NCBI GenBank assembly: GCA_963682025.1
Contig: OY821518.1
Location: 142,638,529 to 142,702,528 of the forward strand
Length of the DNA stretch: 64,000 nt
Direction: 5' to 3'
Source: Cordilura impudica
Lineage: Eukaryota > Arthropoda > Insecta > Diptera > Scathophagidae
Below, piece after piece: positions 1,561 through 58,925 of the stretch. Each line of letters starts with the position of its first letter. Within the stretch, counting starts at the first letter, position 1. Below the pieces are notes generated by a model. It saw only the letters and a program-made list of their open reading frames with translations, was not told where the DNA came from and ran no database searches. Both the position numbers and the translations under genes were made by a program.

Positions 1561-2053
1561 TGTATTTTTTTTTTTTTTGTAAGCATTTCGCTATTTAATA
1601 CATAAAATATTATTAATAATATAATTCTCGATCCTAGAACAAGACCACTTTTGATGGAACTAAGGTTGAATATTGTTAATCACTTTACTTAGTCCGTTTC
1701 CACTTAACTTTAAAACAGTTTTTGAATAGCTTGAATTTAGTACTGAAATAATATTATGTTTTTAAAAATATCCAAGCTAATATTATTAGTTTTTCCAGAA
1801 TTTGAGTCTCAAAAAACAGATGGAGCTCTGATGCTCAACGATGAGACACATGGATGTAGGACAATATGGTTCTTAGTACCTAATAGAAGTTTGTGTGACG
1901 GTAAGATACAATTTTTGGAAAATTCAAATTCTGCAAGTAAAAAAATTAACAACATAAGGATAAAGAATTAAGAGTGCCCATATTTTTATACCCTCCACAC
2001 AACTGTGGGTATATAGCATTTTGTCATTCCGTTTGTAACAGACTAAAATAAAT
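1561..2053. other. AT-rich stretch, no gene seen
   Basis: A 71-codon open frame at 1756-1971 has no recognisable homology and is judged to be chance. Positions 1981-2040 (TTATACCCTCCACACAACTGTGGGTATA) look like the end of a dispersed repeat that abuts the following heptamer satellite. Confidence 0.5.
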
Positions 2054-3867
2054 AATTAAAAATTAAAAATTAAGAATTAAAAATTAAAAATTAAAAATTA
2101 AAATTTTAAAATTTTAAAAATTAAAATTTTAAATTTAAAATTAAAAATTTAAAATTAAAAATCAAAAATTAAAAATTGAAAATTAAAAATTAAAAATTAA
2201 AAATTAAAAATTAAAAATTAAAAATTAAAAATTAAACATTAAAAATTAAAAATTAAAAATTAAAAATTAAAAATTAAAAATTAAAAGTTAAAAATTAAAA
2301 ATTAAAAATTAAAAATTAAAAATTAAAAATTAAAAATTAAAAATTAAAAATTAAAAATTAAAAATTAAAAATTAAAAATTAAAAATTAAAAATTAAAAAT
2401 TAAAAATTAAAAATTAAAAATAATTAAAAATAATTAAAAATTAAAAATTAAAAATTAAAAATTAAAAATTAAAAATTAAAAATTAAAAAAAAAAAATTAA
2501 AAATTAAAAATTATAAATTAGAAATTATAAATTAAAAATTAAAGATTAAAAATTAAAAATTAAAAATTAAAAATTAAAAATTAAAAATAAAAATTAAAAA
2601 TTTAAAAAAAAAAATTTAAAATTAAAAATTAAAAATTAAAAATTAAAAATTAAAAATTAAAAATTAAAAATTAAAAATTAAAAATTAAAAATTAAAAATT
2701 AAAAATTAAAAATTAAAAATTAAAAATTAAAAATTAAAAATTAAAAATTAAAAATTAAAAATTAAAAATTAAAAATTAAAAATTAAAAATTAAAAATTAA
2801 AAATTAAAAATTAAAAATTAAAAATTAAAAATTAAAAATTAAAAATTAAAAATTAAAAATTAAAAATTAAAAATTAAAAATTAAAAATTAAAAATTAAAA
2901 ATTAAAAATTAAAAATTAAAAATTAAAAATTAAAAATTAAAAATTAAAAATTAAAAATTAAAAATTAAAAATAAAAATTAAAAATTTAAATTTAAAAATT
3001 AAAAATTAAAAATTAAAAATTAAAAATTAAAAATTAAAAATTAAAAATTAAAAATTAAAAATTAAAAATTAAAAATTAAAAATTAAAAATTAAAAATTAA
3101 AAATTAAAAATTAAAAATTAAAAATTAAAAATTAAAAATTAAAAATTAAAAATTAAAAATTAAAAATTAAAAATTAAAAATTAAAAATTAAAAATTAAAA
3201 ATTAAAAATTAAAAATTAAAAATAAAATATTTAAAATTAAAAATTAAAAATTAAAAATTAAAAATTAAAAATTAAAAATTAAAAATTAAAAATTAAAAAT
3301 TAAAAATTAAAAATTAAAAATTAAAAATTAAAAATTAAAAATTAAAAATTAAAAATTAAAAATTAAAAATTAAAAATTAAAAAATAAAAATTAAAAATTA
3401 AAAATTAAAAATTCAAAATTAAAAATTAAAAATTAAAAATTAAAAATTAAAAATTAAAAATTAAAAATTAAAAATTAAAAATTAAAAATCAAAAATTAAA
3501 AATTAAAAAATAAAAATTAAAAATTAAAAATTAAAAATTAAAAATTAAAAATTAAAATTTAAAAATTAAAAATTAAAAATTAAAAATTAAAAATTAAAAA
3601 TTAAAAATTAAAAATTAAAAATTAAAAATTAAAAATTAAAAATTAAAAATTAAAAATTAAAAATTAAAAATTAAAAATTAAAAATTAAAAATTAAAAATT
3701 AAAAATTAAAAATTAAAAATTAAAAATTAAAAATTAAAAATTAAAAATTAAAAATTAAAAATTAAAAATTAAAGATTAAAAATTAAAAATTAAAAATTAA
3801 AAATTAAAAATTAAAAATTAAAAATTAAAAATTAAAAATTAAAAATTAAAATTAAAAATTAAAATTA
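2054..3867. repeat. (TTAAAAA)n heptamer satellite, ~1.8 kb
   Basis: About 1.8 kb of almost pure A5T2 heptamer, roughly 250 copies, interrupted by a few dozen variants (TTAAAAATAATT, AAAATCAAAAA, short A runs). The edges are more degenerate than the middle, as expected for an array homogenised by slippage or unequal exchange. There is no coding capacity. The length in the assembly should be treated as approximate, because such arrays collapse easily. Confidence 0.97.
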
Positions 3868-4388
3868 ATTGGTTCATCTTCTATCACATAGTTTTCATTA
3901 GTTTCCAAATTACTTACAAGTATTTTCTCAATGACTGCCGACTCCAAACTAATTCAATTTTCAATAGAGATGCCCGAATATAGCTTAATGATATCTCCTG
4001 AGGTCAAAAACATAAAATCACATTTTTGCAAAATATTTACCTGTGTTTTAATATTTAATAATTTAATTGAATCCTCCGCGAACACTTCTCACAACACAAT
4101 ATTTTAATAAAATATACACGATTAAAAAAAAATGTGTTTAAATTTTAAATTTTATTTAAAATTATAGAAACTGAAAACTAACACAAAACTAAATTAACCA
4201 AAAACAAAAATAGAATTAAAATTGAAGTACAACTATTTAACAATATAAAAGTTTATAAGTGATTAAAAATATTTTTTAAACTCAAAGTAGATTTTCTTAA
4301 AGTTAAAGTTGAGTAATTAAATACTTAAGTCTATGAAGAAATCTACAATATTGACCACTACTGAAAATACCACTATGGAAGGAAACCG
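3868..4388. other. AT-rich stretch, no gene seen
   Basis: Unique-looking AT-rich sequence between the heptamer satellite and the family A element. No open frame or motif is supported. It may be intronic to the upstream part of the cytochrome b5-related gene if that gene's first exon lies further 5'. Confidence 0.5.
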
Positions 4389-5684: not shown

Positions 5685-7181
5685 CTGGTTGGATGGCAAA
5701 AACATTGACGATGAAGCTGAAGGCCTTTGGCGTATTTACAATAAATTATATGATTTCACTTCGTTCATTGCCAAACATCCCGGTGGTGCTCTTTGGTTAG
5801 AAAAAACCAAAGGTACCGATATAACAGAGGCTTTTGAAACACATCACATCAAAGGCATTTCTCCTTTACTATTGGAAAATTTCAAAATACGTGAGGCTTT
5901 ACAGCCCAGAAACTATACTTTGACGTTACATGAAAATGGTTTTTATAAAACTCTGAAGAGACGAGTTGGCAACAAGCTTAAAGATTTGGATTATAGTCCT
6001 CGAAAGAAGACTTTTGTAAGTACAATAACATAAAAAGACTACAATAAAATAAATAAAAAAAATTAAACATACTTACGGTTTTGAGATGTCCTGAAAAATA
6101 TATAAAGACTATTCAGTTAAATTTAATTTTAAATAGAATCAAACTTCTTTAAATAATGTCGTTTTTCGCTTAAACATTTTTAAAATATTTGTTATTACTT
6201 TTCTATCGTTACAGTTTATCCATATGGGTCTTTTAACAGCAACATTGGCATTTTCCGTATTATCAGTCCATGGTATAAGCATATTATTCGAACTATTAGC
6301 AGCTCTTTGCTTATGTTGGCTAAGTATTGCGACTCACAATTATTTCCATCAACGAGATAATTGGCAGATGTATTCATTTAATTTGACCCTAATGAATTTT
6401 GCTGAATGGCGTATATCGCATGCGATCTCACATCATGTTTATACCAATTCTCTGCATGATTTGGAAATGTCACTATTTGAACCGTTTCTCTGTTGGGTGC
6501 CTAATGAACATTTTGCCTCTAAAGTCAGAAGAATTATATCCGTTATAATACAACCGATATTTTATGCAGCCATATTTCCATTTCAGTTTGTGCAAAGGTA
6601 AACAAATATTAAGAACCCCATTATTGCCGAATATTAAGATTAATTTTAAGTTTACTTTCAGAGCTCTCCGATCAATACTTGCTAAAAATGAATTATATTG
6701 GCATGATATCATTGGTTTCTCTTTGCCGGCTGTAATGTTTCTGTTTTCAAATTTGTCAGTTTTAGATGTTCTTATCCAATGGCTACGCATTGTGGGAGTA
6801 GGTAGCTTCTTATTCGGCTTAATTGGTCTAAGTGCTGCTCATCATACACCCGATATCCATCATGATGGTGATGCTAATCGTCATGATCGCGATTGGGGTC
6901 TTTATCAGTTGGATACCGTTATTGATCGTGGTGATATTAAAGGTTCTCAATTTATGGTTCTTACACATTTCGGTGAACATGCCTTGCATCATTTATTTCC
7001 TACCCTGGATCATGGGATACTGCCGCAATTGTATCCAGTATTTTTGAAGACACTTGAGGAATTCAAAGGAGAATTGAGAGAATGTTCATTTTTGCATCAT
7101 ATTATTGGCCAAAACCAACAGTTGTTACGAACAACTCCAAATCTAGGACCACCATGCCAAAGAAATAAACAAAAATTGTAG
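5685..7181 (+). CDS. Cyt-b5-r: Cytochrome b5-related protein (cyt b5 + fatty acid desaturase-like), 5' exon missing
   Basis: Three exons are visible: 5685-6015, 6215-6597 and 6662-7181. GTAAGT/GTAAAC donors and CAG acceptors keep one frame across both introns (199 and 64 bp), and the stop TAG is at 7179-7181. They encode about 410 residues. The N-terminal part is a cytochrome b5 domain with the haem-ligand motif HPGG and a second histidine in ETHH. The rest is a membrane desaturase-like domain with three histidine boxes, HNYFH, HAISHH and HALHH. This order matches the insect Cyt-b5-r family (about 436 aa in Drosophila), so only some tens of N-terminal residues are missing. The first codon is split across the upstream acceptor at 5683-5684, so the start lies in an exon outside the window or in repeats upstream. 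In flies the gene is known as a muscle-enriched ER-type membrane protein; its exact substrate is not settled. No disabling mutation is seen. Confidence 0.93.
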
Positions 7182-19150: not shown

Positions 19151-19583
19151 GACATGATAGGCGACGGTGTCTCTCTTTTGGTCTTGTATGATTTCGGGGA
19201 TATTTGTATGAAAATTTCGTCAACGACTTGTTCGAACTGTCCTCAGCTTGTCTTCAACGATTTAATATTGTCTTGTACTCGTCGTTTAAGATGTCTTAAA
19301 GACGTGGCCAACTAGGTACCTAATACCTTAGACAGGCACACCTCTTATACCTATCGCCTCTAAATCACCTTATTAGTCGATATTCGCCCGTCCATGTGTC
19401 AGTAGACGTAAACCTGGTACGCAAACTAAATATCGCCATTATACAAATAAATATTTAGATTAAATTTGGTATATAATCTTTTATCTGGTATATTTTTTGT
19501 CTGTGTAGAGCGACATCAATTTAGTTTATTTATTTTAGTTTATTTTTTTTTTTTGTAACATCTACAACAAAACATGAGTCTTA
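19151..19583. other. Flank between minisatellite and MITE, no gene
   Basis: Contains minisatellite scraps to about 19260. The motif GTAAACCTGGTACGCAAA at 19412 is shared with the end of the left inverted arm at 34695-34712. TTA at 19581-19583 is the target duplication of the next element. Confidence 0.5.
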
Positions 19584-19779
19584 CGCCGGTTTTCTCAATG
19601 TACCATGACATATATTTATTGGACCGATAAACTGCCGGTTAACAATTTTGGATTTCTCAATGTACCGACAAAAACATTATTTTCAGTTGGCAATGCGTCT
19701 CAAAATACGTATGAAAGTTGGGAGAATTATTTTCAGTTGGAAATGCCTCTCAAAATTGATATGAAAGTTGGGTGAATAA

Positions 19780-20407
19780 CACAAGGCAACAAAATTGAAC
19801 TTTTTTTGTGTTGATTTGAAATTTATAGCAAATTTTTACTAATTTGAGGTCGCTGATTTCAAATCTGCACTTGGTTTTTTTCTATCAGCTCGACTTTTCG
19901 AGATATACCGTTATGTTCAAAATTAAGGCACTTCCGCTACATATATTGGAATAACTTGAAAACGGTTCACCATATTAAATTAAAAAAAAAATCTGAAACT
20001 CGCAAACAATATTCTCTTAAAGCCGTGCTTACTTTGTTTTTAAATTTTCAAAGTAGTTTTAGAGATATCGTTCAAGTTTTGAAAAAAAAATTAAAATTTT
20101 TTAAAAAAAACATTTATTTTGTTCTTTAAAAATTCCTAAAAAATAAAAATGGGACAATAATCACAGTTTTGGTCTACAAACAGTTAGTTAAATATATTTC
20201 GAATAAAATGAGCTTTATTTCATTGCAATCGGTGCACAACTTTTGATTTTGTTCACGATTTACTGAATTGATATAAATCGTGATTTCCATACAAAAATAA
20301 CATTTTCTAATGTGTAAGTGTTTGTATGTAATAAGTTAGTTTTTTATGATTCTAAGAATTAAAAAAATTAAGTAATAAAAAAAGATTATTTCATTTTTAT
20401 GGTCAGC
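19780..20407. repeat. Left long terminal inverted repeat
   Basis: Pairs with 22607-23223. Shared landmarks include TCGACTTTTCGAGATATACC, CGGTTCACCATATTAA, AGCCGTGCTTACTTTGTTTT and GTGCACAACTTTTGATTTTG. Differences are scattered substitutions and homopolymer lengths, so the arms are similar but not identical. Confidence 0.92.
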
Positions 20408-20484
20408 TATACTTTTTAATTTAACACAAAAAGAGAATTTTAAAGAAAAATAAAAAATTTTAATACACAAATATTACAATGTAA

Positions 20485-22176
20485 TTACAACTCATCGAAA
20501 AATTTTCTTTTATAAGATTTTCTTAAATAACCTTGTTTAGAGGGATTTGTTTTAATGCTACAGCAATAGTCCGCCATCATATGCTTATCCCAGTGACCCT
20601 GGTACCGCTCCTCTATAGTGCGGATATCTTGATGGAAACGTTCACCTTGTTCTTCACTGAAGTCTCCAAGATTTTCAGGGAAACAATCCAAATGACTGTG
20701 TAGGTAGTGCACCTTAATGCTCATATTACAACCAAGCTGCTTGAAATGTGACAACATGTTATCCACGGGGTCCGAATAGTGCTCACCCTTTTTGTTTCCC
20801 AGGAAATTGCGCACTATCCAAACAAATTCATTCCAAGCATTTCTTTCAATATCTGTCGTGGAATTACTAAAATTTTCATCATTGATTAATTTTTTGATTT
20901 GAGGGCCATCAAAAATGCCAGCTTTCAGTTTCTCCGAACTCAAATTGTTGAACTTTTTACTGATATATCTAAAACAATCACCGTCCTTGTTAAGAGCTTT
21001 GACAAATTGTTTCATAAGTCCTAGCTTGATATGGAGAGGTGGCAGTATTATGCGATCCCTGGGCACAAGTGGTTGATTAACTATATTGTGGTTTCTTGGA
21101 ATCATAGCTTCCCTCGAAGGCCAGTCTTTCTTACTCCAGTGTTCAGATCTGGCTCTGCTATCCCATAAACAAATGAAACACGGATATTTTGTGTAGCCAC
21201 CTTGTTGGCCTAGAAGAAAATTCACCATTTTTAGATCCACACAAATTAGCCAGCGGTGTTCGTTGTACTTTATTTTATTTATAACTGAGGCAATTGTAGA
21301 ATATTCTTCTTTAGCTTTAGTTGAATGTGCAATGGGCAACGAACCCAATTTATTACCGTTATGCAGAAGTACACATTTTAGGCTGCGTTTAGAAGAATCT
21401 ATAAATAGTCGCCAGTCATTTGGATCATACTCCTCTAATCCCATCGCTGTTACTAAACCAGGAACATCTGAACAATAAACAAATTCATCGTCTTCGGAAA
21501 AGAATGGAAGTAAGTTTTTTTCTCTGTTACGGTAGTATGAAATTGTTGTTCCTTGGGTTAACAGATTTTTTTGCTTTAATCGAGAAGCAAGAATTTCAGA
21601 TGCTTTTTTAGAAAGTCCAAGGTCTCTCACTAAATCACTAAGCTCCTCCTGATTAAATTGCTCGCGTTCAGAAGAAATATCTAAATGCAAGTCATCTGAT
21701 CCAAATTCAGAAATTGGTGAAGGAACATTTTGTCGTAAGTCGTGGAAATTGTGTGTAGATGTAGATGGTTGTGGTTCTGAATCCTCACTAGAGTACAGGA
21801 CTGGTTGGGTAATAGACAACACGTTAGGATAAATCCATTTAGACCGGTTTGTTTTATTAATGCCTGTTATGTTGACAGCGCAAAAATAACAATCATCATA
21901 ATGATTCGAAGGTTCCCGCCAGATCATTGGTGTTTTATACTTGAAGTGGGTCCGTTGCTTGTTTGCCCATAACCTTAAATACTCTACACAGTTTTTACAT
22001 ACAGTATTAGGAATCCAGTACTTGTCACGGGTTTCCATGGTAAATCCGAAGTAGTCAAAATAAATTTTTTTAATAAAATCTGACACACTTTTTCTATTTT
22101 TTATAAACGTGTATTCGCCACATATGTTACAAAAATAGTTGGGATTGATTTTACAGGTGTTTCTTGACGTAGCCAT
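20485..22176 (-). CDS. Putative transposase of an unplaced arthropod family, 563 aa, intact
   Basis: A single uninterrupted ORF with ATG at 22176 (MATSRNTCKINPNYFC) and TAA-side end at 20485. It has paired CxxC motifs at C16/C19 and C60/C63, another CxxC at C96/C99, and a Ser/Glu-rich linker at about 125-180. The core contains FIDSSKRSLKCVLLHNG (D260), ICVDLKMVNFLLGQQGG (D314), PCFICLWDSR with C333/C336 and H346, and LPPLHIKLGLMKQFV. The C-terminal signature is SEEQGERFHQD (E508/E509/E512, H515). I remember similar cores in many uncharacterised arthropod proteins but no name. Its position as the only gene between matching long TIRs makes a transposase the best reading. D260, D314 and one of E508-E512 are a possible RNase H-fold DDE triad, which is inference. 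The arms flank it by 78 bp on the 3' side and 430 bp on the 5' side. Confidence 0.85.
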   Translation of the reverse strand: MATSRNTCKINPNYFCNICGEYTFIKNRKSVSDFIKKIYFDYFGFTMETRDKYWIPNTVCKNCVEYLRLWANKQRTHFKYKTPMIWREPSNHYDDCYFCAVNITGINKTNRSKWIYPNVLSITQPVLYSSEDSEPQPSTSTHNFHDLRQNVPSPISEFGSDDLHLDISSEREQFNQEELSDLVRDLGLSKKASEILASRLKQKNLLTQGTTISYYRNREKNLLPFFSEDDEFVYCSDVPGLVTAMGLEEYDPNDWRLFIDSSKRSLKCVLLHNGNKLGSLPIAHSTKAKEEYSTIASVINKIKYNEHRWLICVDLKMVNFLLGQQGGYTKYPCFICLWDSRARSEHWSKKDWPSREAMIPRNHNIVNQPLVPRDRIILPPLHIKLGLMKQFVKALNKDGDCFRYISKKFNNLSSEKLKAGIFDGPQIKKLINDENFSNSTTDIERNAWNEFVWIVRNFLGNKKGEHYSDPVDNMLSHFKQLGCNMSIKVHYLHSHLDCFPENLGDFSEEQGERFHQDIRTIEERYQGHWDKHMMADYCCSIKTNPSKQGYLRKSYKRKFFDEL

Positions 22177-22225
22177 TGCACAATTTTGAAGTATATATCA
22201 AAGTAACACAATTTTCAATAAATAA

Positions 22226-22262
22226 CACACGGGAACAAAATTGAACTTTTTTGTGTTGACTG
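22226..22262. promoter_or_regulatory. Internal copy of the transposon terminus upstream of its ORF
   Basis: TAA followed by CACACGGGAACAAAATTGAA...TTTTGTGTTGA repeats the left terminus (19780-19816) almost exactly and in the same orientation. It lies 50 bp upstream of the ORF start (22176), where the promoter should be. It could be a transposase-binding site used for autoregulation, or a scar of a nested insertion. Confidence 0.6.
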
Positions 22263-22606
22263 ATTAAATGTTCAATGTAAAATGATTTATATTTTTTGTC
22301 GTTATACTTTTCGCTTTCGTAAACACTTGTTGAATGAGAAAAATTGGTTGAATGAACCCATAAAAATACTTAGTAGTTTTTTACTGAAGTACCAAAAAAA
22401 ATTATATCCACAATTTTATTGACAGTCACTTATGAATGAACACATGTGTTCAGGGGAATTCCTTTAAAAAATCATCCGTTACCAACGGTAAACCACACAT
22501 CAATAAAAACAAGTGGAGTTTTCTTTTTTCTCTTTAATTGACTGTGAACTGACTAGGTGTCATAAAGGGACAATAAAATTTATAGACGTTATGAGTTTGC
22601 TACCGC

Positions 22607-23223
22607 AACCATAAAAATGAAATAATCTTTTTTTATTACTTAATTTTTTTAATTCTTAGAATCATAAAAAACTAACTTATTACATACAAACACTTACACA
22701 TTAGAAAATGTTATTTTTGTATGGAAATCGCGATTTATATCAATTCAGAAAATCGTGAACAAAATCAAAAGTTGTGCACCGATTGCAATGAAATAAAGCT
22801 CATTTTATTCGAAATATATTTAACTAACTGTTTGTAGACCAAGACTGTGATTTTTGTCCCATTTTTATTTTTTAGGAATTTTTAAAGAACAAAAAAAATG
22901 TTTTTTTTTAAAAAATTTTAATTTTTTTTTCAAAACTTGAACGATATCTCTAAAACTACTTGGAAAATTTAAAAACAAAGTAAGCACGGCTTTAAGAGAA
23001 TATTGTTTGCGAGTTTCGGATTTTTTTTTTTAATTTAATATGGTGAACCGTTTTCAAGTTATTCCAATATATGTAGCGGAAGTGCCTTAATTTTGAACAT
23101 AACGGTATATCTCGAAAAGTCGAGCTGATAGAAAAAAACCAAGGGCAGATTTGGATTCAGCGTCCCAAATAACCTTAAAAACAATATTCAGTTCTTAATC
23201 AACAGAACCATTGTTCCCTTGTG
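22607..23223. repeat. Right long terminal inverted repeat
   Basis: Inverted partner of 19780-20407. Its outer end is CCTTGTG at 23217-23223, directly followed by the duplicated TAA. Between the outermost ~15 bp and the well-conserved part (from about 23140 inward) the two arms are more diverged. Confidence 0.92.
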
Positions 23224-23408
23224 TAATTTATCTGCACGATAAATAAATAATTGGCATGTGAGTGCCGGTTAGCTTTGCGACAAAATAGAAGCAAACCAGA
23301 CATTGAGAAAACCAAATTTCTTTAATCGGCAGATAATCGCCTATTGAGAAAACGGGCATTAAAGTAGTAAAAGTACAAACATTCTTAAATGTACGTTATT
23401 TTTAAGTA

Positions 23409-24612
23409 AAGGGTCCGCCAAATAACTTTTTTTTTTGAAAATGCTACAAAAAAAAACTATTGAATATTATCTCAAATTTCTTTTTTTATTTGAAAGTACA
23501 ATCCTTCCGGTTAATAATGGAAAATAATTTCATTCAAATGGCTGCCTCGGCTGGGCATGCAGTAGCCTACACCATCGGTCCAATTTTTAAGCACATTATC
23601 GATTGTGTGCAGCTGTATTTCACCAATGGCTTCACGAATATTGTCCTTTAAAGCGTCAATTGTCTCTGGCTTGTTGGCGTAACACTTATCTTTGAGGGCA
23701 CCCCACAAATAATAGTCCAACGGTGTCAAATCGCAGCTCCGAGGTGGCCAAACGACATCAGCTCTGCGGCTGATAATGCGATCTTCAAAAACAGGGCACA
23801 AACCATCGAGTGTAGCTTCGGCTGTGTGGCACGTAGCGCCGTCCTGTTGAAACCAAATGGTGCCAATATCCTCCTCTTCAATTTTTGTGAACAAAAATTC
23901 GTTCAACATGGCCCGATAACGATCGCCATTGACAGTAACGGCCACTCCTTGCTCATTTTCGAAGAAAAATGGCCCAATTATGCCTCTGGACCAAAATCCG
24001 CACCAAGCAGTGACTCGTTTTGGGTGTATCGGCTTTTCAATGTATGCGTGCGGGTTTTCTGTGCCCCAAATGCGACAATTTTGCTTGTTTACATACCCGC
24101 CAAGATCAAAATGAGCTTCATCTGAAAAGATGATTTTTTTTGGCAAAATCGGCATCTTCTGTAAGTCGATCGCAGGCCCACTTAACGAAGCGAAAACGCA
24201 TTGGATGGTCAGTTGGCTTCAACTCCTGAACCAATTGGACTTTGTATGGCATCACACCAAGGTCTTTATGCATAATTCGTCCCAATAATACCTCCGAAAT
24301 GTTCAATTCTTGAGAACGACGGTGAATTGATGGAGTTTCTTTCACTTTTTTCACAAGATAATGAACATACGGAGCTGACGGTGCTTCTCTTCTTCCAAAA
24401 TCCGTACGCAATTTTCGCACACATTCTGCAACATTACCATGATTTTCAAAGTAATGTCGCAATATTTCCCAGCGTTGTTCAGGCGTATACACAACCATAT
24501 TCGTTCAGCGGAAGGATAAAACTAATTATCTGTCAAATCAGACATGAGCTAAGTGCTACCGTTCACGAAATAAGCACTAGTTGAAAAAAAAAACGTTAGA
24601 TGGCGGACCCTT
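23409..24612 (-). mobile_element. Complete mariner (rosa-type, DD41D), 1,204 bp
   Basis: Terminal inverted repeats AAGGGTCCGCCA and TGGCGGACCCTT, flanked by TA on both sides (23407-23408 and 24613-24614). It carries one transposase gene on the minus strand. TA duplication, size and ORF content are typical of IS630/Tc1/mariner. Confidence 0.95.
23511..24498 (-). pseudogene. Mariner DD41D transposase, one frameshift
   Basis: Two overlapping frames. Frame 24498-24118 begins MVVYTPEQRWEILRHYFENH and holds the N-terminal DNA-binding region. Frame 24155-23511 holds the catalytic domain: IFSDEAHFDLGG (first D), WFQQDGATCHT (second D) and RSCDLTPLDYYLWG (third D), ending HLNEIIFHY. There are 41 residues between the second and third catalytic D, the rosa spacing, against 34 in Mos1. 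The frames meet at an A run (T8 on the plus strand, 24134-24141), where one base too many shifts the frame. The rest is clean, so this is either a very recent lesion or a base-calling error. The enzyme cuts and pastes the element into TA sites. Confidence 0.95.
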
Positions 24613-24614
24613 TA

Positions 24615-25380
24615 TAAAAAAAACAAAAAGAAAAGAAAAAAAAATTATAATAATGCTATAAGATAATTTTAAAAATATGTTATAAATATTGTCATAAGCA
24701 ATGGAAAGTTATTACATAACAATTAATAAAAGCGGAAAAAATAATAATAAATTAATGAGTGATTAGTTAAATTTTGAATTAAAAATATTAAGAATAAAAC
24801 TCAAAAATTATTTTCTTATAATCTAACGGATTGCTGGTTGCTCTAATAATTGGTGCAATAATAATCCAAAGACGAATTGCGGTAATGTAAATATGCCAAT
24901 TTGATATTAGATTATAATATCTTATTTGAATTATGGTATTATTTCTCCTGTGTCGGCTGAAAGTGATTCGATTATACAGATGATTAGGCTCACGAGTTCT
25001 TATAATTTTGTGTAAAAATATTACAGTTCTAATCTTTATCAGGTCATCATTCTGGACGCCAAAAATTTTCTTTGCATAGGGAGTAATGTTCATAGTTTTT
25101 ATTATTTTTGTTTTATTTTTTTTTTTTTTTTCGTTTTAAATGTATACTGAAATTAACATATTACTAGCTAATTCAGATAAAAATATTTTAAAATTGCTTT
25201 CTTTAATATTGATATCTGGAAATTTTTAAGCAAGAATCATTTTAATTATCATATGACTTCTAAGGTCTCAAAACTTTCATATAGGAATCAAACTTTGGGT
25301 ATTATAACGCCGGCTGGGCTAAATAAAGAATTTTATTAGTGTTCAATGAAGTACTTAGGGAACTTATTATGTTTCTACTC
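24615..25380. other. AT-rich stretch, no gene seen
   Basis: A 101-codon minus frame (24788-25093) is open but Ile/Asn-rich with no recognisable motif, and I judge it to be chance. No repeat family identified. Confidence 0.45.
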
Positions 25381-25383
25381 TAA

Positions 25384-25752
25384 TGCCGGTTTTCTCAATG
25401 TATCGTCAAACTTCCTGTTAGTTAACCAGGACATAAATTTATTGGACCGATAAACTGCCGGTTAACAATTTTGGTTTTCTCAATGTACCGACAAAAACAT
25501 TATTTTCAGTTGGCAATGCCTCTCAAAATACGTATGAAAGTTGGGAGAATTATTTTCATTGGCAATGCATCTCAAAATTGATATGAAAGTTGGGAGAATA
25601 ATTTATTTGTACGATAAATAAATAATTGGCAGATGAGCGCCGGTTAGCTTTGCGACAAAATAGAAGCAAACCAGACATTGAGAAAACCAAATTTCTTTAA
25701 TCGGCACTTTCTCGTTGGGATAAAAGATAATCGCCTATTGAGAAAACGGGCA
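25384..25752. mobile_element. PIF/Harbinger-like MITE copy 2, uninterrupted (369 bp)
   Basis: Termini TGCCGGTTTTCTCAATGTA-like and ATTGAGAAAACGGGCA, with TAA at 25381-25383 and 25753-25755. It aligns along its length with the split copy around 19584-23358 and serves as the empty site for the 3.4-kb transposon. No coding capacity. Confidence 0.92.
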
Positions 25753-30250: not shown

Positions 30251-31530
30251 TGTAAAAAAAAAAAATATGTGAATTTCAATGAAAGATTATATATTTATCC
30301 CAACGGAACGTAGGAGAAAAAATTAAATAATAATCTTTTATTTACATTTTAAAATGACCTTGGAGGCCGGATATATAAGTCGGATATATAAGTTCTGAAT
30401 ATTCATTAAATAATAAAAAAGGTCGATATATAAAAAATTTAAAAAAAAAAAACAAAAATATTGCATAGATTTTTTTGAATTTTAGAAATATGGTCATGAA
30501 CGGTCCAGTTTTGACTTAGTGCCACACTAAGACACAGACTAATTTTCACTACTTTTAATAGAGACACCAACAAATTTTTATCAAAGTATATTCACATTTG
30601 CGACCTGTAGTTTGATTACAAATTTTACGTGGACACACAGACAGACAGACAGAAAGATGATACCGGAATTATTGAGGCTTCAACTGGATGGTATGGATTT
30701 GAACGATATGTGGTTTCAACAAGACGGAGTAACGATTTCCAGACCGAATCATCTTCCGAAATGCCGATGTTAATTAGGCGCCAAGATTGTGGAATTGAAC
30801 GCTGTGCGATGTAACGTCCAGATATTTCTTTTTTTTTGGTTTTTTTGAAATCTTAGGTCTATGTGAATAAATCACATGCAATTCCTCAGTTCAAGGCCAA
30901 GCTCCAATGGGTCATCAGTGAGATAGAGCTACATCCTTGTCAAAATGTCGCCGGGGACATATTTCGGATATTGTATTCCATACATAATCGGAACATGTCT
31001 ACTTTACAAAGCAATAAAAATGTCATCACTCGCTATTGGGTCAACATTTATAAATTGATTATATAATATGTTGTCAATGCTGAAAGTTTCGGAGCTCTAG
31101 CTAGCCGGAAAGTTGGTTAAAAATTTAGGTACAAAAATCCGCTTCAAACAAACAAACACACAAAGATAATTCAACAGAAGGATGTAAAAAACCTTAATTA
31201 TCTGTAACTTAATTGTAAAACTTATAAATTTAGCCTACTGTACTTATTAATTTTTTTCTTTCTTGAAAAATATTACTTCAGTGAAAACTTATTGTCTTGT
31301 CATAATTTTGTCACTATTATGTCTTGTTAGAGTGCGACGGTAGAGGCACTCGTATAAAATCTATTTTTTTCAACACAATCTATTTGGCTATTGTCTTATA
31401 GATTAAAAACAATAATGCTATAAAATTTTCCACTTAAAGTAACTTGTTCGACTATAGCAACTTGAGTCTTGTAACGATATATTCGTACGATCAAAGTTCA
31501 TTCTGAGTATTAAATTTTCAAAGCACTTAC

Positions 31531-32476
31531 GTTTGGCAATGAATCTGGTGTTTGCTTAACTTGTATGCCACCAATTTCTATGACAGCTGGAACATTCGGT
31601 CTAATAGGACCTTCGCTAAAATGACTATTACAGAATATTAGAGAAACATTCTTTTCCATATCATGCAGAGAAGGAAAGTTGTCATCGATGGCGAAGAGAT
31701 CTCTGTAAATCATAAGCAAGTTATTAGAAAATCCATACATACTCGTATCTATGCGATCGATTTTTAACATAATCTTACTTGTAGATACTTCGCATTCGAA
31801 TATCTAAGATTTGTTTAAAAATATTGAAAAATATACTGGAAAGGAAATTTTGAAGACGTTCCAAAGTGTTCATTTTTTCACCAATTTTAACAGCCATATT
31901 AATATCAGGAACATATGATATTTCACCGGGATTACCCACCAAAATATCAGTAAACAACATTGGAGAGCCCATCCAACTAACCACCAGAGGTGCTTTAAAT
32001 TTAGCTGCTATTCCAAATTGAAAGGAATTCATGAAATATCCCTGTATAACAAGGTCGAACTTTGTATCTGGATCATCGTAGAGAACCGTAAATCGCGGAT
32101 TTCTTAAAATGTCTGCTTGCATATCGATCAATAACTTTAAGGAACCAAAAGAGTTTTGCACTGTGGTTAGCAAGTTATTTTTCTTTTCAGTCATGCCAGA
32201 CACTTCTTTGCTAAGGGTTCTCTCTTGTTCTTCGGTGGGTGGTATTATAATCATATTGATATTGTCATGCTTAACCTTGGGTTTTTGAGATGCTACGACT
32301 GTAACATTATGTCCCTGTTCAGCTAAAACTTTAGCTACAGACATATGTACTATTAAATGTGAAGGGCTATGACTGGTAAAGATACCCAGAATATTGGCTC
32401 CATTGACATGTGATATTTGCCATGTTACACACACAATCACTAGAACACTTATAAACGTTACTTTGTCACTGCTCAT
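31531..32476 (-). CDS. UDP-glycosyltransferase, exons 1-2 (left-arm copy), 3' part absent
   Basis: Exon 1 runs from ATG at 32476 to 31779, exon 2 from 31702 to 31531; the 76-bp intron has GTAAGA/CAG borders and joins in frame (codon AA|A). The product starts with a signal peptide ending near VNGA, then ILGIFTSHSPSH with the family's catalytic His. It runs to NSHF, RPNVPAVIEIGGI and LPN, about 290 residues, all of the acceptor-binding N-terminal half. A full insect UGT is about 520 residues with a UDP-sugar signature and a C-terminal membrane anchor; neither is seen downstream. The donor GTAAGT after exon 2 is intact, so the rest may lie beyond the window or be lost. UGTs conjugate lipophilic toxins and hormones in the ER lumen. 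Nucleotide-identical to 56590-57535. Confidence 0.9.
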
Positions 32477-33002
32477 TTTCGTGTTGTTCCGTATACGATT
32501 TCTTACAATATACTACGCATTTTACCGATTTGCTTATTGCATTTATGGCAAGTGTTCAAATAATAGTTCTGCATTACGTGCATTTAATATTTATCAATCT
32601 AAAATTAAATGTTTTACATTCCATGATCTTATCAGTTTAGCGATATGTATGTTACAGCAATAAATTCCAGTATTAATTTCCAATTAACTTATGTGTATTA
32701 TTAATGACCAACAAAATTTCGTTCAGTTTGGAGTTGCGAGCAAAAGTTACGAGTGCGTTTGAAAACCAAATCATTTAAATCATATTTTAAGTTTAGTTTA
32801 AATTTTTTGATACATTATTGACATCGCGTCGGAAGAACCTGAACGTTGCTCGGACTACATATACATACAACAGATATTTTGCAGTGAATGCTACGATCGA
32901 TGTTGATCAACTTAATAGTGTATCTGTGTTACGTTACATAATGTATTAGTAGTTGTTAGTTTCTATAATTTAAGTACACTCATATCTCTGTTTATGAGAT
33001 AA
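32477..33002 (-). promoter_or_regulatory. 5' flank of left-arm UGT
   Basis: The minus strand carries GATAAATATT...AATGCACGTA at about 32575-32600, also present upstream of the diverged UGT at 43243-43265 and of the right-arm copy. Conservation between otherwise diverged flanks suggests a functional element. It contains ACGTG on one strand, the core bound by bHLH-PAS factors. No TATA box is obvious. Confidence 0.5.
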
Positions 33003-33640
33003 AAACAAGTGAGAATATTATAGTCGGTCTAGACCCACTATGCGATACCCTATGCCATGCATTTAGATAATTGGTATTAGGTCCAACTAATTGGAAATTA
33101 AGCATAAATCAAATCTGCGTGGAATTTTTATAAATTTTTTGCAGATCCACAGATCTGAAAAAAATTCATATCTGATGCTATATTTATATGGGGACTAGTA
33201 GTCACTTGTTTTTTTTTTCAAAAACATATACAATTCAAATTTAAGAAAATTCTGTGGAATATTTTTTTTTTTATAGTTTTAAGTGAAGACCGGGGAGCAG
33301 TTTTATCAGGGAGCTATGACTAAAAATTCTCCAATAGGGTATGAGGACTAGGACTGAACATGCACCGATATTCACCATTTCAATGGCGTTCGGCTTATGG
33401 CCGGCAGATGCTTATATACAAAAATTCATAAAAATCTATTCATGTTTTCGAACTGTAGTTTGATTACAATGCTCACATGGACACACAAACGGACGGACAG
33501 ACATCACCAAATTGACTCAGATAGTGATTCAGAATCGATCGGTATAATAAAAGATGGGTCCAAGTCAAATATTTTTGGTAATTATAAACATCAGCACAAA
33601 CTCAGTATACCCTGGCCACTTAGTGGTATAGGGTATAACA
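33003..33640 (-). repeat. Dispersed repeat family C, reverse copy in left arm
   Basis: Starts after AACAAGTGAGAATATT with the palindrome in the form AGTCGGTCTAGACCCACT and ends ACTTAGTGGTATAGGGTAT. It inserted before the duplication, since the right arm has it at 55430-56065 in mirror position. Confidence 0.85.
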
Positions 33641-34712
33641 ATGTGAGCAAATTCAAATGTGAGGTAATCAAAAAGTGCAAGTACGATTACATGCGAGAGA
33701 AACGAAGGTTTAAAGCTCACGGCCAACCTTTGTACAAAATTTAACATAGACACAATCTGACTAATTTGAAAAACAATTATTGCAATGATTATTTTCTGTT
33801 TTTACAAATATAAAAATAAAAAATCTCAATTTCGATCTCCATCATTTTAATAACTGAATTTGAAATTAATCAATATAAAGATAAAAATGTTTTTACTTTA
33901 AACTAGTTCGGTTTCAGCACAGGTATATTAATCTAACTTTTTACCAAATAAACTATCTTGCTTTTGTTACTGATGAGGGAATCTGTTTTGCAGAATATAG
34001 ATCAATTTTAAACTAGTGTGCCAAGGTTTTTGGCTTTATTTAAAGTAAAAACATTTGATCTTGAGCCCTCTTAATTTCTAACTTAATCAATTATTACAAT
34101 GTTTCATATAAGCAGTTATTATTTTTTAAAATTATATTTTTGGTGGTTTTGGTAAGATGCCATTAGTTTAAGTTTTCCAAGGTTCAATTATTTAAGAATA
34201 ATTTCGTTATTTATTATATTAGGATCGGCTATAAATTGTATATTATTGTAGTAGAAATTTATACGCCTTTTATATGATATTATTGATATTATTTTATATG
34301 ATAATATTCACAATATCAAATAGAAATTAGAAAGATAACTTAAATCAATAAAATACAACTTCCGTCCTATGACAAGCCCAATTTTAAAATAATTGGTAAT
34401 GATGCAGCTTTACGCCACATTCGTATCCCAAGAAAATATAATGTTGCACTTCTTAAGATAATATTTAGTCGATATGTGCCGAATTTCTAAAAAACTTTTG
34501 AAAATTTTGTAAAATGTTATAATTAAAGTTTTCGAAATTGCCTAAAATGTATTTTTTTTGCGTTTTTTCTTGAATAGGAGTATCCTATATTTGTATTTGC
34601 AAAGCACATAGTGACGTAAATCGTGACTCCAAAAAACTTAATATCGCCTATGATTAATGTAGGCGATTCAACGACGTTTGCCCGGCCGTCTGTTAGTAAA
34701 CCTGGTACGCAA

Positions 34713-36425
34713 AAGACACGCTCGTGGTAAATTAAATGACGCCTATGCAAATTACAGAACATACCTTGCAACAGCTGGACTGATTAAAAGACATGAAAAG
34801 TCAAAATCGAAAGTTACTACTGAACTGAACCTTGACCATGGTAAATATATATTTTTTTTAAACAACGTAGAAAAGCACATGTTAAACAAAATTTTTATTA
34901 TTCGTTAGATATTTGCGAAACTGAAAATGACGTAGAGGAAGCATTTCAATTATTGAGGACCGAAATATGTATCGATAAATGCGCAGATGAGTGGAAAAAA
35001 ACATTTACTATTCGTAAAGAAAAACTAAAAAGTCAAATATCCACAGCCGATTTTATTAAGGAGTTTCCAATACTAGAACAACCAGACGGATACCAGTTGG
35101 TAAATATGTCTTAGGGTGTACTGAAACACTTTTCTCTACCGACGCGTATTGAAGAGCTGAGTATGGAAAACAATACCCCGTTAAGGAATCCGAATTAGAG
35201 TGGAATGTGATCCGAGTAAAACGAAATTGTTGAATACTCAACTAAAACACATTTGCAAATATATATCTCAATAGTATTTTTTGTACTCAGCTCTTCAATA
35301 CGCGTAGATTCAGACCCCTACATTTAAATGTTTATTACCAAATGAAAACACAAATCAATAAAATGCTTTCACATTTCTTTATAAACTGAATTTTTAATAA
35401 AGAAACCCCTTACTTTGGAGATACCAGTAGCATTCGTCACAAAATTAAAGAACAAGTTAGAAAATGCTAGATCAGGTTCAATTAGAAACATATTTAACTT
35501 AATTCAAGTGGAACCAAATGGTAATTTATACAATCAATAATTATATAGTTTTTGACAATGTAGTGTTTTTAAAATGTAGATCTGATTTGATCTGGTTAAT
35601 ACTGGAAAATACTGAGAATATGTGTCTACTTACAGATCGCAATAAACCATTACTGGCATTAATGCTGCTGCCGTTTGTATTTCCATCTTCGACTAAAAAA
35701 GGTGTAAAACTGACCAGAGCAGAATGTGCTGATTCTTTCATTTGTCATTTCATTGTAAGTTACATTTTCAAGTAAAAATCATTTATATCTGTACACATAA
35801 GTATGATGTTTGTAAATATTTTTATATATTTTTCTCAATTTTTATGAAAAAAATATATCACTTTAAAGTCTCCACAAGCTTTATTACTGCTTCGGATTTG
35901 TTAGAGATCAAACATTTTTTTTAAATATTTTCCATAAAAATCGATTCTTTAAAACACAACCGAAATTTACTTTAAAAATAAAGTTGACATTAAAAATTGA
36001 GAAAAATATTAATACATACTCATCTGTAAACACATATAAACGATTTTTACTTGGTTGAATAATCTTAAGGTAGTTATATCTTCTGTATAAATTTAAAACA
36101 TTTTTGTTACTAGGATTTAAAAACAGCTGACACCGGGGTCCGGGATATGTTGAAAAAATCTACAGAACATCAGCCGATCATAATTTTTATTGCGGAGCCG
36201 GTTGCAGTTGTATGGGTCATCGTAGCCCACGTTAAGTATACATTTGAAGACATACGTTCTAGTTTTAAATGCGCAATTGCCGCTTATATCGCTCTCAATA
36301 TAAAATATCCCACTAATTCTGAAAGACCTTGGTTGTTCTTACAAAAGTATTTATTTAACATATCCACGCCCTATGATAAACACGTGGAAGACAGCCTTAA
36401 AACACTTGCTAATGACCTAATTTGA
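34713..36425 (+). CDS. First gene of a two-gene transposon-like unit, multi-exon, 5' truncated
   Basis: Exons deduced from phase-consistent GT-AG borders: about 34713-34850, 34909-35099, 35421-35520, 35549-35754 and 36114-36425. They read ...LNDAYANYRTYLATAGLI | DICETENDVEEAFQLLRTEI...PDGYQL | IPVAFVTKLKNKLE... | FDNVVFLKCRSDLIWLILEN... | DLKTADTGVRDMLKKS...KYTFEDIRSSFKCAIAAY...LKTLANDLI. The pattern (PxGYQL, then KYTF...ALNIKYP before the stop) matches an accessory protein I remember from arthropod elements that also carry a TNP2-like gene; the function is unknown. The 28-bp gap between the third and fourth exons is too short for a normal intron, so the gene may be damaged there. Its 5' end coincides with the inner breakpoint of the inverted arm, so exon 1 is probably cut. 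Confidence 0.6.
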
Positions 36426-36457
36426 TTACATATTTTAAAGCCTTTTAGTTTAAAACA

Positions 36458-38888
36458 ATGGATTTTGTTTGTTTCCATTGTGACAAAAAATATGAGTTGG
36501 ACAAATTTATTACACATTTACAAAGCGTAAAAACAATAAGATACACATGCTCTAAATGTGATCGCGTTTTCGATTATATATATTATTTTAAAAAACATCT
36601 TCAAAGCCATATCACTCCGAATTCCAAAAATTTTGTTTCTGAAGTTCAGAGCTGCTCCGAAACTAATCCTGATATTGAGGATTTGCCTCAGTGCGAAACA
36701 AATCCTCAATATCATGATATGCCTCAAAGAAGCTCTGAAATAAGTTGTTCTAACCCTGAATTGTCAGTAGTTAATACTCCAGCTCACATTAATTCTTACG
36801 TTGTAGATGTTACAAAATTAATGCTTAAATATTATTGTAAGGGAACCATTCCCCGAAAATACTCAATGGAATGTATAAAAAAATTTTCTAATTTTATTAA
36901 AAAATTTATTTACGATCATTTAAGCGAATCAAATAGTTCAGAGTACCAAATAATTCGACAAATTTTAAAATTTGATATTCCCAACACCGAGTATAAATTT
37001 ATTAAAAATCTCAAACAATTCGATTGCTTTTTTCAATGTAAAACTGTTATAGTACATAAATCTATAGAGCCAACAATGACGGCATTAAATAAAATCCGTC
37101 TCCAAAAAGTGACACATATTTTGCAAATTTTTCCATTATTAGATTTCTTCTCAAAGCTATTTTCTTGTACCGAATTCGTTAATGATATAATCAATTACAT
37201 AATCGAAACTGGGACCAAAAGGCCAGATTATATTGATATGTTGACTCAATCGCCTTTTTTTATAAATATAGTAAAAAATTTAAATAGAGATGATAATACT
37301 TTATATTTACCTCTTCTAGTATTTTTTGACGATTTTGAGGTTAATAATCCTCTCGGTTCAAGAGCAAGTATTCACAAACTTGGTGGCGTTTATGCTAAAA
37401 TACTTCCCCTGCCACCAAAATATCAAGCAAAGCTAAATTTCATATTTTTGGGAATGCTTTTTTATACAGAAGACCGAAAAATTTTTAAGAATGAAAGAAT
37501 TTTTTCTCCATTTATTTCGCACTTAAATTCTTTAAGTAAACATTCATTTCATATTTCTAATGCAAAATACAAGAAAATAGTTTTGATACCTTGTCTAGTT
37601 GTTGGTGACAACTTAGGAATAAATTCAGCTCTTGGGTTTGTAGAATGTTTTCTTGCGAATTACTGCTGTCGTTTCTGTAATATGCATAGGAAAGATTTGA
37701 TAAAAGCATGCAAATTGGAAGATGATGTACCTCTATTAGATTATAATTTCTACACAGACTGTATAAAAAATAAGAAATTTTTAATTGATTCAAGTGTCAA
37801 AGAGAATTCTGTGTGGAACAATTTAAATAATTTTCATGTAACATCAAATTTATCTGTAGATATAATGCACGACCTTCTAGAAGGTGTCTGTCATTACATG
37901 TTTTTATTATTAGATATATTTATCAACCGATGCCAATATTTTACTCTTGAAGAGCTTAATTCTAGGATGCTGTATTTTTCATATGAATTGTCGGACAGCA
38001 ATAAGCCACCTCTACTGAACTCCGATCAGTTAACTAAAAAAAAAATTTAAAATGAGTGCTATTGAGATGCTTACTTTTGTAAAATCTTTTGCGTTACTAA
38101 TTGGGGATAAAGTTCCACCAAATTGTAAAGAATGGGAACTATATTTACACCTTAGAGAAATAGTTGACTGTTGTTTTCTGCAAAGTGTACATAAAGAGCT
38201 TCACACGTATTTGAAATATTTAATAGAGAACCACAATCAACTATATTTAGATATCTCCAAAAAACATTTGAAACCTAAATTCCACATTATTCTTCATTAT
38301 CCATATATAATGTCCCAAATTGGATCATTAAAAAATATTTCGTCTCTTAGATTCGAAGCTTTTCATCAAAATTTCAAAAATATTTCAAGTTCCACAAATT
38401 GTAAAAAAAATATAATTCAAACTTTAACAGTTAAATATTCGATTCAAATGTCCAATCTCATTTTAAATTTCGATTCAATTACAGACAGTACCATTACTCA
38501 TGGAAAGCTATCTAAAGTTAGCAATGAAATATTGACACTATATAATGTAAAAGCATTGAAACCCGTAGAAAGGGTAAGCTTTGTCAAATTTCCTGAACTT
38601 TTATTAAAAACAGGCTCTTTTGTATACTTTTCCGAAAATGAAGTTGCGTTTGTTGATTTTATTATAAAATATGAAAACAAATTGTTTGCATTAATTTCAA
38701 TATATAGTATAATCTCTTTCGATTCTCATTTTTATATGTATATTCTTGAAAAACAATATAACTATTCAGCAGTTCCTTTAGACTCGCTAAATGTGTCTTT
38801 TGTGTGTAAAGGGCATATTATAAGAAATAACATTGCAGCTATTAATATTAATAAAATTCAATATGAATCAATGATTCATGAGATGTAG
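36458..38888 (+). pseudogene. Zinc-finger/TNP2-like (CACTA-related) transposase, 809 aa with one frameshift
   Basis: Frame 1 (36458-38050) starts MDFVCFHCDKKYELDKFITH with two C2H2 fingers (C5/C8/H20; C31/C34/H47/H51). The core has VVGDNLGINSALGF (D384), NYCCRFC, and VDIMHDLLEGVCHYM (D468, D472, E475). The DxMHDLLEG box recalls the TNP2/Transposase_21 proteins of CACTA elements. Frame 2 (38052-38888) continues with KFHIILHYP and LRFEAFHQNFK, typical of the same family's C-terminus, and stops at TAG 38886. The frames meet in a run of ten A (38036-38045); a one-base change there would rejoin them. It starts 32 bp after the preceding gene's stop, same strand. Alternative: a host gene domesticated from such an element. 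Confidence 0.7.
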
Positions 38889-43242: not shown

Positions 43243-43356
43243 TAAATATTTAATGCACGTATTACTTACGGCGCGCCGCGGCGTCAATTTAACAGCCACA
43301 GTCGTTAAAATAATCAGTATAATATGAGAATTTATAAAGGCAACAACGACGCAATA
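43243..43356 (+). promoter_or_regulatory. Proximal promoter region of central UGT
   Basis: Starts with GATAAATATTTAATGCACGT, shared with the UGT copies in the arms. A 15-bp GC block, CGGCGCGCCGCGGCG (43269-43283), stands out in this AT-rich region. TCAGTATAA at about 43315 resembles an insect initiator. The longer frame starting at the ATG at 43324 is probably not used, because the paralogue's start aligns with 43357. Confidence 0.45.
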
Positions 43357-44302
43357 ATGAATCGTGAAAAAATATCGTATTTAAGTGCTTTTGTGATCAT
43401 GTGCTTGTCATGGCAAATATCACAAGTAAATGGAGCCAATATTTTGGGTCTCTTTACCAGTCACAGCCCCTCACACTTAATTGTTCACATGTCAATAGTT
43501 AAAGTTTTAGCTGAACAGGGACACAATGTAACCATAGTGGCATCTCAAGTTCCCAAAGTAACACATAAAAATATCAATATGATTATAATACCACCCAGCG
43601 AAGAACAAGATAACATTTTTAAAAAGGAAGTTGCTGGTATGGCCTTGAAGAAAAATAATATCTTTACCACAATACAAAACTTTTTTGGCTCCTTGAAAAT
43701 ATTAATCGATTTACAAGCGGACATGTTGCATGATAAACGGTTTACGGTTCTATACGATAACCCAGATACTAAATTTGATTTAGTCATACAAGGGTTTTTC
43801 ATGAATACTTTCCAACTGGGGGTAGCTGCCAAATTTCGAGCACCTCTTGTAGTTAGTTGGACTTCGGCTCCAATGTTATTTAGTGATGTTATGGTAGGTA
43901 ATCCAAGTGAAACTTCATATGTACCCGATATGAACATGTCCATTCGAGTGGGCGAAAAAATGAACTTTATCGAACGCCTTCAGAATTATTTTTCGAGTGT
44001 ATTCTTTAGAATTATAAAATCTTTAATTGATATCCGTATGAGAAGTTATTACAAGTAAGTTTGTTATTCTATATATATGAATATAATTTAGTCTATTTCT
44101 GTTGCTTCTTAATACCACTAAAATTTATAGAGAGCTCTTTCCTGATGACGGCTCATTCCCCTCTCTGAGAGATATGGAAAGGAATGTTTCAATAGTATTT
44201 TGCAACAGTCACTTCACCGAAGGACCTGTTAGACCCAATGTTCCTGCTGTTATAGAAATTGGTGGTATCCAAGTAAAGGATACACCTGATCCTTTGCCAG
44301 AG
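43357..44302 (+). CDS. UDP-glycosyltransferase, exons 1-2 (central, diverged copy), 3' part absent
   Basis: Exon 1 is 43357-44054 and exon 2 is 44131-44302; the 76-bp intron is GTAAGT...TATAG. The start at MNREKISYLS aligns with MSSDKVTFIS of the arm copies; an in-frame ATG 33 bp upstream is less likely. It has a signal peptide ending VNGA, ILGLFTSHSPSH with the catalytic His, then NSHF, RPNVPAVIEIGGI and LPE before the donor GTTAGT. It is roughly 70% identical to the arm copies by eye, with the same exon lengths and phases, so it is an older tandem paralogue. As in the arms, the exons for the UDP-sugar-binding half and membrane anchor are not found downstream; repeat families C fill 44560-46125. 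Expression and function are therefore uncertain. Confidence 0.9.
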
Positions 44303-56589: not shown

Positions 56590-57535
56590 ATGAGCAGTGA
56601 CAAAGTAACGTTTATAAGTGTTCTAGTGATTGTGTGTGTAACATGGCAAATATCACATGTCAATGGAGCCAATATTCTGGGTATCTTTACCAGTCATAGC
56701 CCTTCACATTTAATAGTACATATGTCTGTAGCTAAAGTTTTAGCTGAACAGGGACATAATGTTACAGTCGTAGCATCTCAAAAACCCAAGGTTAAGCATG
56801 ACAATATCAATATGATTATAATACCACCCACCGAAGAACAAGAGAGAACCCTTAGCAAAGAAGTGTCTGGCATGACTGAAAAGAAAAATAACTTGCTAAC
56901 CACAGTGCAAAACTCTTTTGGTTCCTTAAAGTTATTGATCGATATGCAAGCAGACATTTTAAGAAATCCGCGATTTACGGTTCTCTACGATGATCCAGAT
57001 ACAAAGTTCGACCTTGTTATACAGGGATATTTCATGAATTCCTTTCAATTTGGAATAGCAGCTAAATTTAAAGCACCTCTGGTGGTTAGTTGGATGGGCT
57101 CTCCAATGTTGTTTACTGATATTTTGGTGGGTAATCCCGGTGAAATATCATATGTTCCTGATATTAATATGGCTGTTAAAATTGGTGAAAAAATGAACAC
57201 TTTGGAACGTCTTCAAAATTTCCTTTCCAGTATATTTTTCAATATTTTTAAACAAATCTTAGATATTCGAATGCGAAGTATCTACAAGTAAGATTATGTT
57301 AAAAATCGATCGCATAGATACGAGTATGTATGGATTTTCTAATAACTTGCTTATGATTTACAGAGATCTCTTCGCCATCGATGACAACTTTCCTTCTCTG
57401 CATGATATGGAAAAGAATGTTTCTCTAATATTCTGTAATAGTCATTTTAGCGAAGGTCCTATTAGACCGAATGTTCCAGCTGTCATAGAAATTGGTGGCA
57501 TACAAGTTAAGCAAACACCAGATTCATTGCCAAAC
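56590..57535 (+). CDS. UDP-glycosyltransferase, exons 1-2 (right-arm copy), 3' part absent
   Basis: Exon 1 is 56590-57287 and exon 2 is 57364-57535. The intron is 76 bp, the same length as in the central copy. Sequence, start and splice sites are identical to the left-arm copy at 31531-32476, in the opposite orientation, so the two are transcribed away from each other and away from the spacer. The protein has a signal peptide, the SHSPSH motif with the catalytic His, and the RPNVPAVIEIGGI block, then stops at an intact GTAAGT donor. The UDP-sugar-binding half is not found from here to the end of the window. Perfect identity means either very recent duplication, gene conversion, or an assembly duplicate. 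Confidence 0.9.
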
Positions 57536-58505: not shown

Positions 58506-58925
58506 TTTTTTTTTTATTTATTTATTTATTAAGTCTATGGTAAAACCTTACAGACTGTTAAGTATAATACAGAGAAAAAAAAAATATAATATATACAAAT
58601 CCTTAAATCAAAAATTTGAGATTATGTATTTAAAAATAATATAATATTGCGTTTAATAATATCATCATTTAAAGAAAAATCAATTAAATTGTATAGATCA
58701 TTGAAATCATGGCAAATTCTTCTAAATGGATCAGGATCGGCAAACTTTTGACGACAGATTGGGATAAACAGTGGAGTGTAAAAACGTGTTGACCATGCCG
58801 TAACGTTCATGGAGATGTTGTCCATAAGAAAATTTGAGCATATGTCGCCTCGAATTAAGTTAAATAAAAACATAACATTAAGCATTGTTCTTCGGCTTTT
58901 TAAAGACGGAGAAAGTCTAATTGTA
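58506..58925 (-). mobile_element. LINE 3'-end insertion private to the right arm
   Basis: On the minus strand the segment ends in AATAAATAAATAAA plus poly(A) at about 58530-58507. A frame at 58885-58622 (RGDICSNFLMDN, FYTPLFIPICRQK, DLYNLIDFSLNDDIIKRNI) looks like the C-terminus of a jockey/CR1-type LINE ORF2. The left arm (30530-30580) lacks it and has about 10 other bases instead. It is therefore a 5'-truncated LINE inserted after the arms separated, with a small target deletion. Confidence 0.75.

Follow-up and report, generated by a model that had tools for sequence, protein, structure and literature searches.

A young, high-copy transposon, very probably of the Chapaev3 type, with long inverted arms and flipped copies in Cordilura impudica

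Chapaev3 transposons have been placed in the CMC/Transib/RAG1 clade, as kin of the RAG1 recombinase, in the available parts of PMC4079192 and PMC12730594. In the same part of PMC4079192, Chapaev3 elements are described as duplicating TWA between A and T and as encoding, mostly in one exon, transposases marked by C(2)C, LH and H(4)H, and Chapaev elements at large as having CAC...GTG ends; the consulted section of PMC4411706 adds a Chapa-type N-terminal zinc domain as a Chapaev3 mark. Here, we analyzed a 64,000-bp stretch of the dipteran Cordilura impudica (Scathophagidae; assembly GCA_963682025.1, contig OY821518.1, positions 142,638,529 to 142,702,528 of the forward strand; hereafter the window), in which a 3444-bp element encodes a 563-amino-acid (aa) protein. 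A sequence-only reading had described it as a complete transposon whose TWA duplication, CACA-type ends and very long terminal inverted repeats did not fit a well-known superfamily and might mark a poorly described group of cut-and-paste elements. The first part was borne out, and the second was not: the TWA duplication, the CAC ends and the motifs that had seemed unplaceable are the defining marks of a known group as Chapaev3 is described in those parts of PMC4079192 and PMC12730594. We concluded with high confidence, from published descriptions, that the element is a Chapaev3-type cut-and-paste transposon, presumably an autonomous one.

The flanks (GAATAA / CACAAGG...CCTTGTG / TAATTT) set the borders exactly at 19780-23223, which confirmed the earlier borders, TAA duplication and CACAAGG ends. 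When both flanks were fused over a single TAA, they aligned with 25384-25752 across the insertion point, with small indels elsewhere. This site, previously used as the empty site that fixes the borders, represents the target repeat a second time and is a paralogous empty site rather than an allele. The target repeat occurs twice in the window (25384-25752 and about 19580-23360); it is short, has inverted ends, which were judged by eye, and seems to be flanked by TAA in its turn.

As the sequence-only reading had suggested doing, we searched the genome (1.486 Gb, 855 contigs) for other copies. A protein search scored 77 copies (of 23525 first-look candidates) with 98-100% identity from residue 1 or 2 to residue 563, and the frame was free of stops in 70 of them. 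The 57 copies examined (30 + 20 + 7) were the top scorers of this search; the other 20 fell outside the sample. A substitutions-only finder, allowing up to 5 substitutions of 21, located both ends in 49 of the 57 copies, with element lengths of 3132-3698 bp. Identical TWA flanks were observed in 45 of these 49 (30 TAA and 15 TTA), and A preceded and T followed the duplication in all 49. A 30-mer from the open reading frame (ORF) had 775 exact matches genome-wide, and its backward control had none. Median divergence from the consensus between the arms was 0.23% (54 of the 57 copies; L035, L052 and L060 were dropped as short), a value biased low because the copies were top scorers. Changes pooled against the ORF consensus comprised 73 synonymous, 87 nonsynonymous and 6 stops, with 50 of 55 frames intact (L002 and L021 were dropped since their alignments fell short of the full ORF); the corresponding ratio of nonsynonymous to synonymous rates, 0.29, is not used as evidence because a sample of top protein-search scorers favours intact frames. 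We concluded that the element is intact, young, recently multiplied and present in high copy number.

Relatives of the protein were found in the same genome. A pattern for the GERFHQDI motif, excluding this family's own codon, occurred at 555 places (control, 0), and a protein search with one relative yielded at least 118 matched stretches. The relatives compared, L061-L067 from the motif places and L068-L072 chosen from the protein search, aligned piecewise with the window protein at 29-70% identity. In all seven of the former the homology was partial or split over at least two frames; L069 was open across most of the protein (524 aa). Along the single-exon ORF the conserved motifs run in the order D260, D314, C333xxC336, L381-H382, H490x4H495 and E509/E512. 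Among the relatives covering each site, D260 was conserved in 10 of 10, D314 in 9 of 10, and E509 and E512 in 9 of 9, although 7 of the 9 had been found by a pattern that forces E512. Of the acidic residues proposed earlier (D260, D314 and E508-E512), E508 was kept in only 6 of 9. C333 and C336 were each kept in 10 of 10 rows, L381 and H382 each in 10 of 11, H490 in 11 of 11 and H495 in 9 of 11, one row at H490-H495 being the misaligned tail of a broken piece. The three CxxC pairs noticed before (C16/C19, C60/C63 and C96/C99) were all found and are the only N-terminal ones; a fourth lies at C333/C336.

The predicted model places strands and helices in RNase H order and gave a RAG1/Transib-like catalytic fold by VIA-align. 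Together with the conserved residues, it points to an Asp-Asp-Glu (DDE) catalytic core, and the RNase H-type core that the sequence-only reading had expected of a structure prediction is supported by this model. An AF2 model from the lone sequence was poor (mean pLDDT, a per-residue confidence score, 39.2) and was not used for fold searches.

All of the described marks that we could compare were found: the TWA duplication, its A and T neighbours, CAC...GTG termini in the window element and other copies, C(2)C, LH and H(4)H, and the DDE core. Among named Chapaev3 elements, Garfield, Merrow and Conan share the A|TWA|T target, the ends and these motifs, and the transposases of Garfield_BM (556 aa) and Merrow (562 aa, 78+484) are close in length to the 563 aa found here, according to the portion of PMC4079192 at hand. 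Three full-length members given there measure 2289, 2451 and 2455 bp and have two exons, compared with 3444 bp and a single exon here; what sets the window element apart from that account is its 563-bp arms (no arm lengths were found in that portion), an extra 998-bp unit and flipped copies. The group is already recorded in a fly, Calliphora vicina, in which Chapaev3-1_CV and Chapaev3-2_CV, likened here by description, are represented in the available part of PMC3630058 by three insertions only, the longest of 1075 bp and the -2 copy of 302 bp.

Several observations weigh against the Chapaev3 assignment. It was made from descriptions, without direct alignment or a tree to a named Chapaev3 transposase. 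Flanks were unequal in 4 of the 49 two-ended copies. Pfam, which the sequence-only reading had named as a check, gave no confident match to a named superfamily, the window protein having only a sub-threshold zf-AD match (E 0.0024); PDB sequence searches gave nothing relevant, only globins at E >= 0.087; and Foldseek retrieved nothing from PDB at E <= 0.001. The match to RAG1/Transib comes from VIA-align, at a root mean square deviation of about 7 A. Garfield and Merrow transposases have two exons, compared with one here, although most other Chapaev3 genes have one (PMC4079192, same portion), and EnSpm elements may also combine CAC..GTG ends with 3-bp duplications (PMC12730594, in the part seen).

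Among the alternatives, a distinct, undescribed CMCT lineage beside Chapaev3, with which it would have the A|TWA|T target and CAC ends in common through shared ancestry, survives best and is still improbable. It would account for the lack of a fitting Pfam model for the window protein and four relatives, and of a fitting NCBIfam model for the window protein, and it draws on the placement by description, no named reference having been aligned; however, every testable published mark of Chapaev3 is present, including the A/T neighbours, LH and a similar protein length. Transib, RAG1 and BbRAGL are 9-12% identical to the window protein in aligned rows, and the target duplication of that group is 5 bp, compared with 3-bp TWA here.

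It is very improbable that the 563-aa gene is a passenger in an element mobilised in trans by another transposase. The gene does lie within an apparently chimeric unit, and related transposase genes are plentiful in the genome; against this, the protein has the full catalytic set, and two of its relatives are carried by elements whose ends and targets are of the same type. These ends were read by eye from one copy each: L063 (2414 bp) has CACAGGT..ACCTGTG with A TAA/TAA T, and L065 (2586 bp) has CACAGCCC..GGGCTGTG with A TTA/TTA T; both ends were not located for the remaining five of L061-L067. An animal EnSpm/CACTA element is compatible with the ends and the 3-bp duplication, C(2)C and H(3-4)H being clade-wide (PMC12730594, the part available), but the A|TWA|T target, LH and H(4)H fit Chapaev3 as described in the accessible part of PMC4079192. 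We give this reading very little credence. PIF/Harbinger elements also duplicate 3-bp TWA, and a second, Myb/SANT ORF is typical of Harbinger at large. That assignment is scarcely credible, given CACA ends, a protein with the C(2)C..H(4)H set and a RAG1/Transib-like model, and no second ATG-started ORF of at least 80 aa in the element, such as the Myb/SANT ORF given for Nuwa in the available part of PMC12730594.

Searches elsewhere were negative: BFVD had no match at E <= 0.001, viral contigs had no relative by protein scan or pattern scans, three viral stretches (L031-L033) had no tblastn match better than E 0.33, and a literature search for peptide words had no match.

We next considered the arms of the Chapaev3-type element. 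In the inverted arms, put at about 620 bp in the earlier reading, the inner parts are 97.5% complementary over 564 alignment columns, and the outermost 53-62 bp are only partly similar. The sequence-only reading did not remark on a third terminus, B', inside the element, which matches the 19780 end in direct orientation (92% across 37 bp), has TAA just outside it, and is followed by TTATTT in the gene's direction. It was present in 55 of the 57 copies according to an indel-tolerant end-finder, which set left ends wrongly and recognised the two ends together in just 11 of 57. The exact B' end with WA occurred 717 times genome-wide, and a 29-mer spanning the internal terminus and the gene leader had 698 exact matches (backward control, 0). 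As 698 of the 717 ends lie in this junction, no sizeable separate family with the exact B' end, and no independent mobile 998-bp family, was evident by this search, which diverged members would escape. Removing the 998 bp that run from B' to the 23223 end would leave an element of 2446 bp, which matches Merrow (2451 bp) in size. The relative L063 has arm-like sequence beside its 3' end only (two pieces, together 313 bp, 82-84%) and showed no long inverted repeat; a further 155-bp part of the 998-bp unit resembles the 5' side of L062 (72%).

The capture of a non-autonomous relative is the simplest reading of the long arms. The founder of the burst would have been a chimera, formed when such a relative (22226-23223), part of it an inverted copy of the family's 3' flank, was placed immediately upstream of the gene; the outer end of this relative may then have acted as the element's 5' end, which would have created the long arms. 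Three points make this less than certain. Gene copies without the B' junction exist (775 ORF matches compared with 698 junction matches), arm length varies in the group, the inverted arms of L065 being about 167 bp long and the inverted repeat of L064 (element borders not set) about 160 bp, and the long arms were possibly lost in L063 instead.

The two ends allowed us to follow the orientation of the gene. Across the 101 arms that could be read, A and B arms were separated by 37 markers within the outermost ~91 columns, and the about 600 inner columns had no A/B difference fixed at the 75% level. A lay on the gene's 5' side in 39 of the 49 two-ended copies and B in 10; overall, 12 of 57 copies were inverted, including two single-ended ones. 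Of the 21 arms of inverted copies, 17 had all 37 outer markers swapped, two more deviated by a single unreadable marker only, and the 5' arms of L018 and L042 reverted at the innermost marker. Two inverted copies on different chromosomes and with different flanks (L016 and L017) differed at no more than two positions over the element, which indicates that the inverted form has probably transposed. A minimum of 8 changes was required on a quick tree, and the grouping of all 12 inverted copies in one clade was not rejected (p-AU, from the approximately unbiased test, 0.26).

We tentatively proposed, as an account somewhat short of evenly balanced, a two-state element in which capture of the relative gave 563-bp arms, arm recombination flips the gene, both isomers transpose and the chimeric founder seeded ~700 copies. 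In the Chapaev3-type reading itself, held with high confidence, the 563-aa protein is the transposase, its N-terminal cysteine-rich domain probably binding the CACAAGG ends and its RNase H-like core (D260, D314, and E512 or E509) putatively cutting them; a predicted zinc-binding module (C333xxC336 with H490x4H495) would be inserted in this core. The cut ends would be joined to A|TWA|T targets, with duplication of the 3-bp TWA, and recombination of one arm with the other would invert the gene relative to the two ends. Galileo, of the P superfamily, likewise has long terminal inverted repeats that grow by recruitment of internal sequence, and chimeric copies made by recombination; it differs in its superfamily and its 7-bp duplications, and gene flipping between unlike ends is not described in the available part of PMC3573991.

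Table 1. Features of the Chapaev3-type element and its target in the window
Feature	Position	Strand	Evidence
Left target site duplication TAA	19777..19779	.	Flank reading and empty-site alignment
B end (CACAAGGCAACAAAATTGAAC...), gene 3' side; arm-specific outer part	19780..19841	+	Arm alignment, marker comparison
Inverted arm, gene 3' side	19842..20403	+	97.5% complementary to 22608-23170
Transposase ORF, 563 aa, no stop	20485..22176	-	D260, D314, C333xxC336, L381-H382, H490x4H495, E509/E512; N-terminal CxxC pairs
Gene leader, begins TTATTT immediately after internal terminus	22177..22225	-	
Internal, putatively fossil terminus B' (CACACGGGAACAAAATTGAAC...)	22226..22263	+	Same direction as 19780 end; 55/57 copies
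998-bp unit, gene's 5' side, terminus at each end	22226..23223	.	Putative captured non-autonomous copy
Inverted arm, gene 5' side	22608..23170	-	Arm alignment
A end (CACAAGGGAACAATGGTTCTG...), arm-specific outer part	23171..23223	-	Arm alignment, marker comparison
Right target site duplication TAA	23224..23226	.	Flank reading and empty-site alignment
Paralogous empty site: second target-repeat copy without insert	25384..25752	.	Flank alignment

Other features were observed in the window. A mariner-like element at 23399-24622, its family judged by eye, has inverted ends of about 38 bp (84%) and a transposase in two frames, one of which had no Pfam match. Two overlapping frames at 36449-38888 (+) resemble an animal EnSpm/CACTA transposase, and two adjacent frames at 52119-52976 (+) a broken hAT-type transposase, both by eye and with no Pfam match. 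An inverted duplication of 4157 bp (30557-34713 and 54354-58507, 99.8% identity) carries a UDP-glucosyltransferase-like exon whose protein is identical in both copies, and a third, diverged copy lies at 43309-44058. Two overlapping frames occupy 6137-7181 (+), the second matching PF00487 (fatty acid desaturase), and a long tandem array with a period of about 7 bp, judged by BLAST offsets, spans 2044-3868.

Taken together, these results remove the claimed new superfamily; what stands out is the youth of the element, its copy number and its chimeric, invertible layout. A young, intact, high-copy element of the Chapaev3 type is a candidate for studying the biochemistry of this group, a cousin of RAG1, and the apparently chimeric 5' unit, together with the flipped copies, may offer a tangible example of the origin and the effects of long inverted repeats.
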